From: Chloroflexota bacterium
GTDB taxonomy: Bacteria; Chloroflexota; Anaerolineae; Anaerolineales; Villigracilaceae
NCBI GenBank assembly: GCA_016219545.1
Contig: JACRMH010000003.1
Span: 62,001-126,000, forward strand
Length of the DNA: 64,000 bases
Direction of reading: 5' to 3'
Shown here: piece after piece, positions 1 to 51,590 of the stretch
Layout of the letters: each line of letters opens with the position of its first letter
Position numbering within the stretch: position 1 is the first letter of the stretch
Position numbers and translations under genes: made by a program
Notes under the pieces: model-generated
The model's database searches: none
Told to the model about the DNA's origin: nothing
Seen by the model: only the letters and a program-made list of their open reading frames with translations

Positions 1-598
1 GCATTTCCAGCGAAGTATTGATGGCCGCCGCCCCTTCAGCCAAAGCGGACATCACCCGCGCAGTCCGCTGGCTTTCAGTGTAGAGACGGGCATTCAAAAC
101 CGCCACACTGGCCTGGTCGGCGATGGTTTGCATCAATTCCAAGTGTTCTTCATTGAAAGTATTGGGGATAGAATGAACGAGGGTGAGCACCCCCACCAAC
201 CGGTCACGTGCCATAAGCGGCACGCAGATCGCCGACTTCGCGCCGCTCTTTTCGGAGGAGTCATCCGCACGCCGCAACCAACGATCATCCTGGCTGGTAT
301 CCGCCACAAGTGCAGCTTTGCCATGCTGCACTACCCATCCCGCAAGTCCATGTTCCACTGTATCCCGCAATTGCTGGGTGGTGTGGTCCTGGAATTTCGT
401 ACCATACACAATGGTCGCATCCACGGGCTTGCCAAGATCATCCATCACCACGATACTGCCGCGCTCGCCGCCTACATGTTGAAGAGCCGCATAAAGCAAA
501 CGCTGCAACACTGTGCGAAGGTCGAGCGCAGTGGCAACCTCGCGGCTGATATTAATTAATAGTTCCAGCAGGGATCGGGAGCGGTCTTCAATGATCAT
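1..598 (-). CDS. GAF-domain protein, partial (runs off the left edge)
   Basis: Minus-strand open frame with no stop to the edge; translates MIIEDRSRSLLELLINISREVATALDLRTVLQRLLYAALQHVGGERGSIVVMDD...NTFNEEHLELMQTIADQASVAVLNARLYTESQR, typical GAF. Possible GTG start about 12 nt upstream. Confidence 0.8.
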   Translation of the reverse strand, partial: MIIEDRSRSLLELLINISREVATALDLRTVLQRLLYAALQHVGGERGSIVVMDDLGKPVDATIVYGTKFQDHTTQQLRDTVEHGLAGWVVQHGKAALVADTSQDDRWLRRADDSSEKSGAKSAICVPLMARDRLVGVLTLVHSIPNTFNEEHLELMQTIADQASVAVLNARLYTESQRTARVMSALAEGAAAINTSLEM

Positions 599-17757: not shown

Positions 17758-19656
17758 TTATTCTTTTACTTCGCCATCGATCACATCGCCATCTTGCGGA
17801 GCGGATTGTCCGCCAGTTCCCTGCGGGGGCTGTCCCTGTGCTTGCGGGTCACCTTGAGAATAGAGCTGCTGACTCAAAGCATGGAAAGCGTTCTGCAAAG
17901 ACTCTGTGTGCTTCTTGATGTTGGCAATATCATCGCCTTGCGCGGCTTGCTTCAGATCGTTGATCTGAGTTTCAATGGAACTGCGTTCTGCTGCCGGAAC
18001 TTTATCACCGAGTTCACGCAATGCCTTTTCGGTTTGATAAATAAGATTATCGGCATCGTTCTTAACCTGGATAGCTTCACGGCGTGCCTTATCCGCGCTT
18101 TCATTCTGACGGGCTTCCTGTACCATACGCTCGATATCATTCTTGTTCAGGTTGGTCGAAGCGGTGATCGTGATCTTCTGTTCCTTGCCTGACGCTTTAT
18201 CTTTGGCAGTAACGTGCAAAATACCGTTCGCATCAATGTCAAAGGTCACTTCCACTTGCGGGATGCCGCGCGGAGCCGGCGGGATTCCATCGAGGCGGAA
18301 TCTTCCGAGGCTCATGTTGTCATTTGCCAGCGGACGTTCACCTTGCAGGATGTGAATATCTACAGCAGTCTGGTTATCCGCGGCGGTTGAGTATGTCTCC
18401 GTCTTGCGGACAGGGATCGTGGTATTGCGTTCGATCATGACCGTCATGACACTGCCCATCGTTTCAACGCCAAGTGAAAGCGGAGTCACATCCAACAATA
18501 AAATATCCTTGACTTCGCCGCCGAGTACGCCGCCTTGAATGGCCGCGCCAATCGCTACGACTTCATCGGGGTTGACACCCTTGTTTGGTTCTTTGCCATT
18601 CGTCAGCTTGCGTACCAGGTCCTGCACCATCGGCATACGCGAGGAACCACCGACTAATACCACTTCGTCGAGTTTGTCCGCTGAGAGTCCTGCATCTTTG
18701 AGCGCGGATTCAAACGGCTTGCGGCAACGAGCAAGCAGATCATCAGTCATCTGCTCGAATTTGGCGCGGGAAAGTTTTAGTTGTAAATGTTTCGGTCCAC
18801 TTGCATCGGCTGTGATGTAAGGCAGGTTGATCTCAGTTTCCATGACTGTGGAAAGTTCGATCTTTGCTTTTTCTGCGGCTTCGCGTAAACGTTGTAAGGC
18901 TTGCTTGTCAGCGCGCAGATCAATGCCTTGATCCTTCTTGAATTCATCCGCGGCCCAGTTGGTGATCTTCTGATCCCAGTCATCGCCGCCGAGGTGGGTA
19001 TCGCCATTCGTGGATTTGACTTCAATCACGCCTTCGCCCACTTCAAGCACGGATACATCGAACGTACCACCGCCGAGGTCGAAGACCAAAATGGTTTCAT
19101 TCTTTTTCTTATCGAGTCCATAAGCCAGCGCGGACGCTGTCGGCTCGTTGATGATGCGCAGAACTTCGAGACCTGCGATCTTGCCCGCATCCTTGGTCGC
19201 CTGACGCTGACTATCGTTGAAATACGCCGGGACAGTGATGACCGCCTGTGTGACAGCTTCGCCAAGATACGCTTCCGCATCAGACTTAAGCTTGCCCAGG
19301 ATCATCGCACTGATCTCCTGCGGAGAATATTCCTTGCCTGTCATCGGAAGTTTAACGCGCACATCATTGGAAGGTCCTTCAATAACTTGATAAGGAACCA
19401 TGCCGCGCTCGACAGTGGTCTCGCCGAAGTGCCGTCCAATGAAACGCTTGATGGAATAAACTGTATTATCCGAATTGATCACAGCCTGCCGCTTCGCGGT
19501 CTGACCGACCATACGTTCGCCGTTCTTGTTGAACGCCACCACTGACGGGCAGAGTCGTCCGCCTTCCGCAGTTGTGATGACAGTTGGTGTGCCGCCCTCC
19601 ATGACAGCGACAACGCTGTTTGTAGTACCTAGATCAATGCCTATGATTTTTCCCAT
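17758..19656 (-). CDS. dnaK: Chaperone DnaK (Hsp70)
   Basis: [22 protein letters not shown]; full-length 632 aa. Confidence 0.99.
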
Positions 19657-43594: not shown

Positions 43595-43667
43595 GGGCCT
43601 GTAGCGCAGTTGGGAGCGCGCCTCAATCGCACTGAGGAGGTCAGGGGTTCGAATCCCCTCAGGTCCA
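43595..43667 (+). tRNA. tRNA-Ala, anticodon CGC
   Basis: GGGCCTG/CAGGTCC acceptor, CCTCA-ATCGCAC-TGAGG anticodon arm, AGGGG-TTCGAAT-CCCCT. Confidence 0.93.
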
Positions 43668-43669
43668 CT

Positions 43670-43738
43670 GTTCAGTGATCAGTAACCGGTTATCAGTCGC
43701 TGAACAAATCTGATCGCTGGTTACTTAAAAACTGATAA
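43670..43738. repeat. Inverted/direct ATCAGT-type repeat between the two tRNA-Ala genes
   Basis: TTCAGTGATCAGTAACCGGTTATCAGTCGCTGAA palindrome followed by CTGATCGCTGGTTAC...ACTGATAAC. Confidence 0.65.
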
Positions 43739-43748
43739 CGAATAATAT

Positions 43749-43821
43749 GGGCCCATAGCGCAGTTGGGAGCGCGTCTCAATGGCATTGAGAAGGTCGAGG
43801 GTTCGAATCCCTCTGGGTCCA
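43749..43821 (+). tRNA. tRNA-Ala, anticodon GGC
   Basis: GGGCCCA/TGGGTCC acceptor, TCTCA-ATGGCAT-TGAGA anticodon arm, GAGGG-TTCGAAT-CCCTC. Confidence 0.93.
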
Positions 43822-43840
43822 CTAAATATTAAAAAGTCAT

Positions 43841-44113
43841 GGCAGGAGTAGTAGGTTAACCCGTCAGCGAGTTGGGAGAGTGAGGTGGAAGCCCAGCGTC
43901 AGTGTCAACGGGACACTAATCCCCTAAAGGGGACTTCGAAACCGAACTCGCCTGTTTCTCGAAAGAGGACTTCGCTGATGAAGAAATGTAGTCAGTGACG
44001 GGAAAGCCCGTTATAGCAAATCAAAGTGACGTTAGTATCTAACGTAATTTGGGTGGTACCGCGGAGCGCGCAGCGTCCTTCGTCCCTATTTGTGGATGAA
44101 GGATTTTTTTTAT
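43841..44113 (+). promoter_or_regulatory. T-box leader of ilvE; predicted specifier CTC (Leu)
   Basis: Conserved GGGTGGTACCGCGG at 44051-44064; stem I CAGG-AGTAGTA-GGTT...AACC-GAA-CTC-G-CCTG; terminator TCCTTCGTCC...GGATGAAGGATTTTTTTT. Confidence 0.9.
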
Positions 44114-44126
44114 CCAGGAGACTCGA

Positions 44127-45050
44127 ATGGCAATATCGAAGACGGAATGGATCTGGCATAACGGTCAATTTGTAAAATGGGATGACGCAAACGTCCACAT
44201 TACGACGCATGCCTTGCATTACGGTTCAAGTGTGTTCGAAGGAATTCGGTCATACTCAACCAAAGCTGGTCCAGCAATTCTGGGACTTGATCCTCACGTA
44301 CAGAGACTGTTCGACTCATGCCGCGTCATGCGCATGGATCTGCCATATACACAGGAACAGACTTCTTCCGCCATTATTGAAACCGTGCGCCGTAATGGAC
44401 TGGATGCCTGTTATATCCGTCCATTGGCGTACAAAGGCACAGGGACGATCACCCTGGATGCGCGCGGCGCCCAAACTGAATTTGCCATCATGGCCTTTGA
44501 CTTTGGCCGACTGCTTGGCACGGATGGAATTGAGAATGGCGTGGATGTAATGGTCAGCAGTTGGCGGCGCATGGCCCCAGACACCCACGCTGGCATGACC
44601 AAGGCCGGCGGCAACTATGTCAACTCTGGCTTTGTGACCATGGAAGCCAATGACCTGGGTTACATGGAAGGCATTACGCTGGATGTGAATGGACACGTCA
44701 GCGAAGGGAGCGGCGAGAATATCTTTGTTGTGTATCGCGGTGCGATTTACACTCCGCCTGTAGGCGCATCCATTTTATTGGGAGTAAATCGCAGTTACAT
44801 TATCACCCTCGCCCATGAGTTGGGGTATGAAGTCCGCGAAGATACTTTTCCGCGCGAGATGCTGTATGTAGCCGATGAACTCTTCTTCACAGGCACAGCC
44901 GTGGAAGTGACTCCCATCCGCTCGGTGGACAGGATCAAGATCGGGAACGGTGGGCGCGGCCCGGTCACGGAGAAAATCCAAAGTCAATTCTTTGGCATCA
45001 TCAGCGGAGACATCCCTGACAAACATGGCTGGATGACGCTGGTTAAATAA
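44127..45050 (+). CDS. ilvE: Branched-chain amino-acid aminotransferase
   Basis: HYGSSVFEGIRSY, AYKGTGTITLD, GSGENIFVV, DELFFTGTAVEVTPI. Confidence 0.96.
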   Translation: MAISKTEWIWHNGQFVKWDDANVHITTHALHYGSSVFEGIRSYSTKAGPAILGLDPHVQRLFDSCRVMRMDLPYTQEQTSSAIIETVRRNGLDACYIRPLAYKGTGTITLDARGAQTEFAIMAFDFGRLLGTDGIENGVDVMVSSWRRMAPDTHAGMTKAGGNYVNSGFVTMEANDLGYMEGITLDVNGHVSEGSGENIFVVYRGAIYTPPVGASILLGVNRSYIITLAHELGYEVREDTFPREMLYVADELFFTGTAVEVTPIRSVDRIKIGNGGRGPVTEKIQSQFFGIISGDIPDKHGWMTLVK

Positions 45051-45128: not shown

Positions 45129-45205
45129 CTATGGAAAGTAAGTAAATAATTTTAGAGTCTGGCAGCAAACTGTCAGACTCCAGAGAATCTAAAAAGGAGG
45201 CACGA

Positions 45206-45289
45206 ATGAAACCTAATATCCGCATCAACTTTATCTTCTGGAAACGGGGGCCTCTTCTTCCACGCCTCCTTACCACCAGACCCGCCTGA
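45206..45289 (+). CDS. Candidate leader peptide upstream of leuS (27 aa, MKPNIRINFIFWKRGPLLPRLLTTRPA)
   Basis: Strong RBS AAAAAGGAGG 5 nt before ATG; two Leu-Leu codon pairs (CTT CTT, CTC CTT); AAGGAGGC RBS is complementary to GCCTCCTT at 45264-45271. Confidence 0.6.
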   Translation: MKPNIRINFIFWKRGPLLPRLLTTRPA

Positions 45290-45332
45290 TAATTGGCTAT
45301 TGATATCTGAAACCGACATCAACGAGGAAAGA

Positions 45333-47801
45333 ATGACTGATATATATTACAACCATAAGGAAGTAGAAGCTAAATGGCAGAAGAAATGGGAAGCGGACAA
45401 GTTGTACCGCTCTGTCATTGATACATCCAAGCCGAAGCATTATGCACTGACGATGCTGCCCTACCCCAGCGGCGACCTGCACATTGGTCACTGGTTTTCG
45501 ATGATCCCACCGGATACTCGCGCGCGTTTCATGCGGATGAAGGGCTATAACGTGTTGTTCCCGATGGGCTTCGATGCGTTTGGTCTGCCTGCGGAAAATG
45601 CCGCCATCAAAGACGGCATCCACCCAATGAAGCGGACTTTCCAAAACATCGACCGTATGCGCACACAGATGAAGACCATGGGCACGATGTTCGATTGGGA
45701 ACGTGAAGTGATCTCTGCCTCGCCCGAATACTATAAATGGACTGAATGGTTCTTCATTCAATTGTATAAGCAGGGCTTGGCCTATCGCAAAATGTCTGCG
45801 GTGGATTGGTGCCCGCATTGCAACACAACTCTGGCGCGTGAGCAGGTCTGGGGCGACGACCGTCACTGCGAACGCTGCGGCACGCCTGTCATCAAAAAGA
45901 ATTTGGATCAGTGGTTCTTCAAGGCCACCAAATATGCCGACGAATTGTTGAACTTCGAGGGCATTGATTGGCCGCAGACGGTCAAGACCTTGCAGACGAA
46001 TTGGATTGATCGCAGCGAAGGCGCATCTGTAATTTTCAAAACTGAATTTGGAAATCACGATGTAGAAATATTCACCACCCGCCCTGATACATTATGGGGT
46101 GCGACCTTCATGGTATTCTCGCCAGAACATCCATTGGTGAGTGAAATTACCACGCCTGAAAATAAAGCCGCGGTCGAAGAATACAAAGCACAGGCCGCGC
46201 GCCAGACGGAAATTCAACGCGGCGCAGTGGACAAGGAAAAGACGGGCGTATTCACTGGCGCGTATGCCGTCAACCCGGTCAATCAGGCGCGCATTCCAAT
46301 TTGGATCGCGGACTATGTCATGATGTCCTATGGCACGGGCGCGATCATGGCTGTGCCTGCGCATGACGAACGCGATTTTGCTTTTGCCAAAAAGTATGAA
46401 CTGCCCATCGTCGAAGTGATCAGCCCTGAGGTAGGGGCGACTCGCGAGTCGCCCTTGGAATCCGCATATATCGGCGCAGGTGTCATGGTCAACTCAGGCA
46501 TATTCAACGGCACAAAAGTCAATACAGAAAAAGGCAGAAAGAATCCTGGCATTGCAAAAGTGTTGGATTGGATCGCCGAAAAGAAAATCGGCAAGGAGTC
46601 GGTTAACTATCGTTACCGCGATTGGTTGATCAGCCGTCAGCGCTATTGGGGCGCTCCGATCCCGATGGTCAATTGCGAGATTCACGGTTGGAATCCCGTG
46701 CCTGATGACCAACTGCCAGTGACATTACCCGAAGATGTGGAGTGGCGACCAACTGGCGAAAGCCCGTTGAAACTGCACCCGACCTGGAAGAATACCACCT
46801 GCCCCGTCTGTAACGGACCTGCCACGCGCGAGACTGATACGATGGACACATTCATGTGCTCGTCATGGTATCACTTGCGCTATCTGTCGCCGCATTACGA
46901 TCAAGGCCCATTCGACGAAGCCGAGTACAACTATTGGATGCCTGTTGACACGTACACGGGCGGCATCGAACACGCCACCATGCATTTGCTGTACACGCGC
47001 TTTTTCCATAAGGCGCTGCGCGATGCGGGCATCGTGGAAGGTCACGAGCCGATGCTGCAATTGCGCAATCAGGGCATGGTGCTGGGCGAAGACGGCGATA
47101 AGATGTCCAAGAGCAAGGGCAATGTGATCGCACCTGATGTGCTGGTGGATAAATACGGCGCGGATAGCGTGCGCGCCTATATCATGTTCTTTGCGCGTTG
47201 GGAAATGGGTGCGCCGTGGGACTCGCAGGGTATTGAAGGATCGGTGCGCTGGATCAGGCGTGTGTGGACATTGTTCACCGATCCGACTCAGCCGGCAACT
47301 GCTTCAGAAGAGGTGAAGAAGAATCTGCGCCGAAAGGTTCACCAAACTTTGCGCAAAGTAACCCGTGACTTCGAGAACTTTGAATTCAACACGATCATTT
47401 CATCCCTGATGGAATTGATGAATGAAATGTACAAGGCGCGTGAAGCTGGCGCGGCCGGCAGTGACGAGTGGAAGGAAGCCCAGGAAATCTATTTGAAGAT
47501 GATGGCTCCCGCCACACCGCACATCGCCGAAGAATTGTGGTCATATTTGGGCAAGCCATATTCAGTCCACACACAAGCCTGGCCGCAAGTAGATGAAGCT
47601 GCCACAAAGGAAGACTCCATCGAACTGCCCGTCCAGATCAACGGTAAGGTACGTGACCGAATCACCGTCCCAGCCGAAGCAACCGATGATCAGATCAAGT
47701 CCGCAGCATTAGCGAGTGAAGTGGTGCAAAAATTCCTGGAAGGTAAAGAGCCGAAGAAAGTGATCGTGGCGAACAAGAAACTGGTCAGTGTTGTAGTTTA
47801 G
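45333..47801 (+). CDS. leuS: Leucyl-tRNA synthetase
   Basis: MLPYPSGDLHIGHW, KMSKSKGN, LeuRS insertion DQWFFKATKYADELL. Start set at MTDIYYNHKEVEAKWQKKWEAD. Confidence 0.98.
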   Translation: MTDIYYNHKEVEAKWQKKWEADKLYRSVIDTSKPKHYALTMLPYPSGDLHIGHWFSMIPPDTRARFMRMKGYNVLFPMGFDAFGLPAENAAIKDGIHPMKRTFQNIDRMRTQMKTMGTMFDWEREVISASPEYYKWTEWFFIQLYKQGLAYRKMSAVDWCPHCNTTLAREQVWGDDRHCERCGTPVIKKNLDQWFFKATKYADELLNFEGIDWPQTVKTLQTNWIDRSEGASVIFKTEFGNHDVEIFTTRPDTLWGATFMVFSPEHPLVSEITTPENKAAVEEYKAQAARQTEIQRGAVDKEKTGVFTGAYAVNPVNQARIPIWIADYVMMSYGTGAIMAVPAHDERDFAFAKKYELPIVEVISPEVGATRESPLESAYIGAGVMVNSGIFNGTKVNTEKGRKNPGIAKVLDWIAEKKIGKESVNYRYRDWLISRQRYWGAPIPMVNCEIHGWNPVPDDQLPVTLPEDVEWRPTGESPLKLHPTWKNTTCPVCNGPATRETDTMDTFMCSSWYHLRYLSPHYDQGPFDEAEYNYWMPVDTYTGGIEHATMHLLYTRFFHKALRDAGIVEGHEPMLQLRNQGMVLGEDGDKMSKSKGNVIAPDVLVDKYGADSVRAYIMFFARWEMGAPWDSQGIEGSVRWIRRVWTLFTDPTQPATASEEVKKNLRRKVHQTLRKVTRDFENFEFNTIISSLMELMNEMYKAREAGAAGSDEWKEAQEIYLKMMAPATPHIAEELWSYLGKPYSVHTQAWPQVDEAATKEDSIELPVQINGKVRDRITVPAEATDDQIKSAALASEVVQKFLEGKEPKKVIVANKKLVSVVV
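46431..46455. repeat. Family C palindrome in frame inside leuS
   Basis: GTAGGGGCGACTCGCGAGTCGCCCT, translated VGATRESPL. Confidence 0.7.
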
Positions 47802-51328: not shown

Positions 51329-51335
51329 CTCAACC

Positions 51336-51590
51336 ATTCAGAAGTAGTAGGTAATTGCCTCTCTGACAGAAAAGAAGGTCATCGGCTGTGAGCCTTCGCA
51401 GAAAAGGGTTACCGAAGTCATCTGAAACCACTGGCGAAGAAAGCCTAAACAAAGGTCATTAGACCGCCACGGGAATGCCCGTTACAGCATAGACTGATGA
51501 ATGTCGGTCACAAAGCGCAGCCGGAAGGTTGAACTGAGGTGGTACCGCGGAGCACACGCTTCGTCCTCTTGATGGACGAGGCGTTTTTGT
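51336..51590 (+). promoter_or_regulatory. T-box leader; predicted specifier GTC (Val)
   Basis: CAGA-AGTAGTA-GGTAA...TTACC-GAA-GTC-A-TCTG; GAGGTGGTACCGCGG; terminator ACGCTTCGTCCtcttgatGGACGAGGCGTTTTT. Confidence 0.93.

Follow-up and report, generated by a model that had tools for sequence, protein, structure and literature searches.

A conserved leader ORF with a candidate self-masking helix between a leucine T-box and leuS in Villigracilaceae (Chloroflexota)

The window, a stretch of 64,000 nucleotides from a Chloroflexota bacterium of the family Villigracilaceae, carries the leucyl-tRNA synthetase gene leuS at the end of an ordered locus, in which a promoter-like site is followed by two tRNA-Ala genes, a T-box with its terminator, ilvE, a short upstream ORF (uORF) and leuS (Table 1). 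Many relatives retain the order of tRNA pair and T-box, and the T-box unit may therefore be co-transcribed with the tRNAs. In most relatives leuS lies directly downstream of this T-box, whose specifier is the Leu codon CUC, while in the window and a few related genomes ilvE stands between the T-box and the uORF, ending directly before the uORF in L002, L005, and L009. An earlier interpretation made from the letters alone (hereafter the sequence-only reading) had proposed a non-T-box control of leuS, which does not hold, as a T-box with a Leu specifier precedes leuS itself. The same reading had pointed to two T-boxes nearby, and both are real, though they score under the Rfam cut-off. The second shows an apparent Val specifier (GTC) and precedes a 155-aa ORF without a Pfam match and then valS. 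At the uORF itself we found no T-box core, specifier, or terminator, the T-box being a separate element upstream. The uORF is a second layer added to the T-box, not an alternative to it. We also observed that the LeuS of most relatives (e.g., L004 and L006) carries a Lys/Ala/Pro-rich, low-complexity N-terminal extension of ~100-200 residues, which is not found in the LeuS of the window.

Table 1. Features of the leuS locus in the window, with the leader found at thrS in the same genome.
Feature	Position	Strand	Basis or remark
Promoter-like TTGACA-17-TAGAAT	43547		start of ordered locus
Two tRNA-Ala genes	43595-43822		directly upstream of Leu T-box
T-box leader before ilvE	43829..44090	+	Rfam RF00230, 75.1 bits, E 4e-15; below 93-bit gathering cut-off
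T-box specifier codon CTC (Leu)	43947-43949	+	read from alignment and motif GAACTCGCC
T-box core GGGTGGTACCGCGG of ilvE-side T-box	from 44051	+	
T-box intrinsic terminator, 11-bp stem and U run	44075..44104	+	overlaps antiterminator region
ilvE-like class IV aminotransferase	44127..45050	+	Pfam PF01063, E 3e-40
11-bp hairpin upstream of uORF	45155..45180	+	conserved in near relatives only
Arm 1: uORF Shine-Dalgarno, spacer, start codon AAGGAGGCACGAATG	45194..45208	+	alignment of 24 species
uORF MKPNIRINFIFWKRGPLLPRLLTTRPA, including stop	45206..45289	+	conserved peptide, core pN/pS 0.055
uORF core codons F-W-K-R-G-P-Leu1 (TTC TGG AAA CGG GGG CCT CTT)	45236..45256	+	residues near-invariant, G/P/Leu1 codons free
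Arm 2: codons Leu2-x-x-Leu-Leu (CTT CCA CGC CTC CTT)	45257..45271	+	complementary to arm 1
leuS	45333..47801	+	Pfam Leu-tRNA synthetase editing domain PF13603, E 3e-66
Second T-box	51331-51571		75.6 bits, below Rfam cut-off; two genes before valS
thrS leader	L203 (own genome G000:C68), 314-507	+	also L185, L186, L189, L191, L192, L198

The uORF runs for 27 codons from the ATG at 45206 to the TGA at 45287-45289, is preceded by the Shine-Dalgarno (SD) sequence AAGGAGG, and is followed 43 nt on by the leuS ATG at 45333. Every element of the Leu-rich ORF reported in the sequence-only reading, from its strong SD to its distance from leuS, is thus in place, and the 11-bp hairpin it had described upstream is also present in the window. 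We rejected this hairpin as a conserved part of the leader: it is missing from most relatives, and a similar stretch was found only in L100 and L058.

We searched for LeuS in 60 related genomes and fetched 30 genomes of the genus, the window's own included, with the flanks of the gene. FWKQGPLL or a near variant was encoded directly before leuS in 23 of the 30, a diverged form in L022, and none in the other six. Once later loci were added, there were 36 distinct versions of the uORF, nearly all with the core FWKQGPLL, and the Leu codons were conserved with the peptide: CTT encodes Leu2 in 35 of 36, and CTT or CTC encodes the third conserved Leu (Leu+3) in 35 of 35. The sequence-only reading, which had staked itself on conservation of the peptide and of its Leu codons upstream of leuS in relatives, survives on both counts. 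Across 35 versions, the seven codons of the core gave a pS of 0.90 and a pN of 0.050 (pN/pS 0.055), while pN/pS outside the core was 0.57 for the three preceding codons and 0.79 for the tail. These substitutions show strong purifying selection on the core, and with its conserved SD the uORF has the properties expected of a translated short ORF under selection. Codons are free at fixed residues, Gly and Pro being encoded by four codons each and Leu1 by all six, and the residues Leu1 and Leu2 are invariant, which gives the uORF a conserved run of Leu codons, as expected of an attenuator of leuS. An inner hairpin, UUCUG-GAAA-CAGGG, was considered as the cause of the FWKQG conservation and rejected; the F3/Q3 pairs were C-G in 20, U-G in 7, U-A in 5, and C-A in 3 cases. 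Since there is no clear F3/Q3 covariation and the G, P, and Leu1 codons are free, what is conserved is the peptide and not the inner hairpin.

The leader belongs to leuS. The exact pattern FWK[QR]GP occurred once per genome in 20 of 37 genomes of the genus and in none of 24 genomes from other genera, and a profile search of 201 genomes of the order returned matches with E < 1e-7 in the genus only, always at the leuS locus, other matches being weak (0.02 and above). When the core and Leu-codon pattern was run against the genomes of ~85,000 species, 25 stretches were found, and leuS was just downstream on the fetched piece in 22 of them. As for the other three, L093 is the leuS-upstream contig of G018, which ends early, and L091 and L102 (from Exiguobacterium and Lentisphaerae) are without the core peptide. 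From these comparisons, a conserved, translated leader ORF specific to leuS is almost certainly present. One locus labelled Brevefilum fermentans (L103) holds a genus-type uORF with leuS, and its match is G210, a member of the window's genus; the label of this MAG may be wrong.

Conservation of the peptide and a strong, conserved SD of its own might also suit a small functional protein that is made when the T-box opens, with the helix described below merely holding its level low. We regard this as improbable, given that the conserved core spans only about eight residues and is followed by the loosely constrained tail, that total length varies from 20 to 47 aa with in-frame repeat inserts tolerated in the core, and that the uORF is often lost. 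It was not found in the genus members L003, L007, L010, L015, L018, L021, and L116, and on the LeuS tree it is scattered, with several apparent losses that include L003, the nearest relative of the window. A search of small-protein families gave no family match for the peptide, which also counts against a small protein, and plasmids gave no matches.

Other genera of the family, and one further family of the order (L123), carry a second class of peptide at the same place, between leuS and the T-box (or ilvE). It has the same SD and helix and a core (P/S/H)CLL(A/V)(R/Q) in which FWKQGP is not kept, and its Leu pair is CTT CTC in six of six cases, L022 counted in. A wider search for the CLLARL-class pattern in 396 genomes of the class gave one true match (G224), the others being chance. 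The parts shared by the two classes are the SD, the helix, and the CUY Leu pair, which speaks more for the reading of codons than for a role of the peptide sequence alone. This bears on the possibility that the uORF encodes a nascent-chain arrest leader, in which FWKQGP would halt the ribosome at Gly-Pro-Leu-Leu on some signal and the Leu codons would be arrest site and hairpin parts only. The near-invariance of F-W-K-Q-G-P-L amid free synonymous change goes beyond the need of a plain codon sensor, the GP at the stall site is like that of SecM-type arrest, and in the genus a conserved core, FWKQGPLL, lies near the putative pause site. Nevertheless, this core is replaced in the other genera, where, as in L022, FWKQGP is swapped out yet the CTT-CTC pair and the helix are kept, and an insert of eight codons separates Leu1 from Leu2 in three species (L013, L014, and L028). 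We therefore consider an arrest leader of this kind unlikely.

The eight-codon insert (PFDEALGR and the like) leaves the reading frame, the number of Leu codons, and the 3′ arm of the helix intact. At the DNA level it is a 24-nt palindromic repeat (CCCTTCGAC...GGACAGG), found at the same point in all three species; other inserts inside the uORF were observed in L106, L110, and L112. The spacing from ATG to Leu2 is never shorter than 36 nt, with a mode of 39, which may approximate the room required by a second initiating ribosome behind a stalled one.

The complementarity of 8 nt between AAGGAGGC (45194-45201) and GCCTCCTT (45264-45271), reported in the sequence-only reading, is confirmed in the letters. 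In the alignment, arm 1, which consists of the SD plus start codon (AAGGAGGCACGCATG), pairs with arm 2, made of the codons Leu2-x-x-Leu-Leu. The duplex of the two arms had a mean energy of -14.9 kcal/mol, compared with -9.45 +/- 0.53 for a synonymous null and -11.97 +/- 0.48 when Leu was held to CTT/CTC, the observed value being reached in 0 of 500 redraws. Swapped arms did as well as own arms in 50 of 10,000 permutations, and when the partner was slid by one to three columns the paired cells fell from 78% to 39-58%. Covariation, which had been named as a check on the helix, gave a mixed answer: compensatory pairs are seen at columns 14/86 (G-C to A-U, e.g., L020 and L029) and 19/81 (C-G to U-A, e.g., L030), but the column-shuffle test was modest, with 77.8% paired cells versus 76.3 +/- 0.7 (13 of 500) and a covariation count equalled in 39 of 500. 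The sequence of the window has several competing folds, the 8-bp helix being one among them; it is part of the minimum free energy structure of 45140-45345, although folding of a shorter context gave it an ensemble probability of only 0.07 per base. Leu2 is constant in part because its CUU pairs with AUG, and codon choice and pairing are not fully separable because the CUY codons overlap the anti-SD arm. All the same, the alignment makes it very probable that a functional helix masks the start of the uORF. The idea of an RBS-sequestering complement was therefore half right: a conserved helix does appear to mask an RBS, but that of the uORF and not that of leuS.

That a ribosome on the uORF would toggle leuS directly, with one arm alternating between the SD of the uORF and that of leuS, was also part of the sequence-only reading, and in principle the pyrimidines of arm 2 would allow it to pair with any SD rich in purines. 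However, arm 2 showed no preference over shuffled sequences for any stretch up to the leuS start (duplex energies, 35 species, mean z +0.29), and constrained folding with modelled stalling left the predicted accessibility of the leuS SD unchanged (from 0.43 to 0.44-0.45). The gap between uORF and leuS, 2-199 nt long, over 60 in many relatives and often filled with unrelated repeats, is conserved neither in length nor in sequence. We accordingly discarded a third arm, and such a toggle is very hard to credit. Because there is no third arm and the leuS SD is unaffected, the gate would sit on the uORF, not on leuS. The absence of a terminator noted earlier was borne out, no intrinsic terminator being found between uORF and leuS in the window, so any output at the level of transcription would have to work through Rho or by some other route. 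The alternative structures of an attenuator, one of them controlling the downstream gene, are thus not seen here, and the sequence-only reading as a whole is partly supported. At the uORF itself, stalling modelled on Leu1 or Leu2 raised the predicted accessibility of the SD from 0.23 to 0.50.

A further set of observations concerns codon use. The complete genome G025 encodes one Leu tRNA each with the anticodons CAA, TAA, CAG, TAG, and GAG, of which tRNA-Leu(GAG) should read CUU/CUC; this is presumably also the tRNA bound by the CUC-specifier T-box. A pattern search for tRNA-Leu(GAG) gave no GAG gene; the G025 copy came from a tRNA family search, and none was located in the window's own incomplete genome. 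In the window, leuS uses CTT/CTC in 0 of its 44 Leu codons, compared with 39% in the other genes (p 4e-10), among them dnaK (17761-19656) with 47% and valS with 41%. Over 30 genomes (L001-L030), the share was 4% in leuS and 38% in neighboring ORFs, pooled counts that are not independent tests since the genomes are related. The avoidance is present also in some genomes without a recognized uORF, which indicates that it predates the uORF or is more widespread.

We also considered whether the uORF might be a ribosome-loading or transcript-stabilizing element, its translation behind the T-box protecting the leuS mRNA with no sensing of leucine. Its strong SD, a start that in most relatives is close to the T-box terminator, and the short, variable gap to leuS would agree with such a role, which nevertheless leaves the conserved CUU/CUC codons, the self-masking helix, and the leuS specificity unexplained; moreover, the T-box genes pheS, ileS, valS, and serS are without such a uORF in the two genomes checked. 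We rate this explanation as rather improbable. A response of the uORF to leucine or to Leu-tRNA is, on the comparisons made here, probable.

The reading we prefer, with some reserve, is that of a self-gated leader peptide that senses charged tRNA-Leu(GAG) and raises LeuS output under leucine shortage; stalling, the leucine response, and the link from the uORF to LeuS output are the steps that we infer, while conservation, coding, the helix, codon choice, and the position in the locus are read from the sequences themselves. The leader-peptide gene between the Leu T-box and leuS would be a second, ribosome-read sensor of this charged tRNA, its start enclosed in a hairpin with its own Leu codons. 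A translating ribosome would open the hairpin and, if held at CUU/CUC by scarce Leu-tRNA(GAG), perhaps aided by the nascent FWKQGP chain, would cover the far arm and leave the uORF start open to more ribosomes. Fast run-off would let the hairpin close and end uORF translation. Occupancy of the uORF could then give more LeuS under leucine shortage, either through reinitiation or coupling across the short gap, or because the transcript is protected or continued. Weighing against this reading are the lack of a conserved structure linking the uORF to the leuS start, the missing terminator, the modest column-shuffle result, the members of the genus that have no uORF, and the codon avoidance in the leuS of genomes without a recognized one.

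Leader-peptide attenuators are well known from amino-acid operons, from pheST of E. coli (pheM), and from leuL of leuABCD, the leuL of Salmonella using a minor Leu codon family. Like these, the uORF is short, carries codons for the amino acid that would be sensed, and precedes a gene whose product makes or charges that amino acid. In contrast to them, it has no terminator or antiterminator after it, its helix masks its own start, it has strongly conserved non-Leu residues (FWKQGP), and it sits downstream of a T-box. With the T-box (RF00230) it would share the sensed tRNA-Leu, the CUC specifier being upstream of the same transcription unit, but it stands apart, beyond the T-box terminator, and would be read by ribosomes, whereas the T-box binds the tRNA directly. 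In the window, where ilvE separates it from the T-box, the uORF remains next to leuS. It also resembles translational attenuators (e.g., ermC) and arrest-peptide leaders (e.g., tnaC, secM, and speFL) in that ribosome position may alter local folding and in having a conserved peptide core, but here the RBS of the downstream gene is outside the switching structure. We found no earlier description in the open literature searched, the coverage of which was incomplete. If our reading is correct, T-box and leader-peptide control are stacked on one synthetase gene, and the start of the uORF is gated by its own sensing codons.

Finally, a parallel case was found at thrS, which we count in favor of the preferred reading of the leuS leader. 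A uORF of the form MT..T..RLGG follows the thrS T-box in seven genomes of the genus, including the window's own (L203, MTRTRERLGGL). Its Thr codons, read by eye in the seven starts, are ACT/ACC only, and its SD pairs with its own codons at -11 to -15.5 kcal/mol. The share of ACT/ACC is 13% in thrS, 48% in leuS, and 56% in the window, and thrS uses CTY at 29% (thrS loci L186-L205); the self-avoidance is thus reciprocal, as leuS shuns CUU/CUC and thrS shuns ACU/ACC, and each codon set is normal in the other gene. No such avoidance was seen in valS and serS in two genomes. A broader reading, which we put forward tentatively, is a two-tier, codon-matched control of aminoacyl-tRNA synthetases, in which a T-box (transcription) and a self-gated leader (translation) would address the same tRNA-Leu(GAG) and the synthetase gene is purged of the corresponding codons, thrS and tRNA-Thr having the same trio plus the pseudoknot described below. 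The T-box would sense uncharged tRNA-Leu(GAG), and the codon purge would let the synthetase still be made. The purging of the controlled gene would then match the sensed tRNA isoacceptor. The selective-charging idea holds that sensitive codons are used in sensor genes and avoided in rescue genes; if the reading holds, leuS and thrS would make this directly testable in one genome, with opposite avoided codon sets.

The thrS leader is possibly a new regulatory RNA, and the candidate matched the T-box and no further family in Rfam. It has a second pairing, of GCGCCTCGGAGG with a downstream CCTCTGAGACGC, with 10-12 of 12 pairs formed in the seven species and compensatory changes in L191 and L186. 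This pairing interleaves with CTGCTTC/GAAGCAG, which predicts an H-type pseudoknot.
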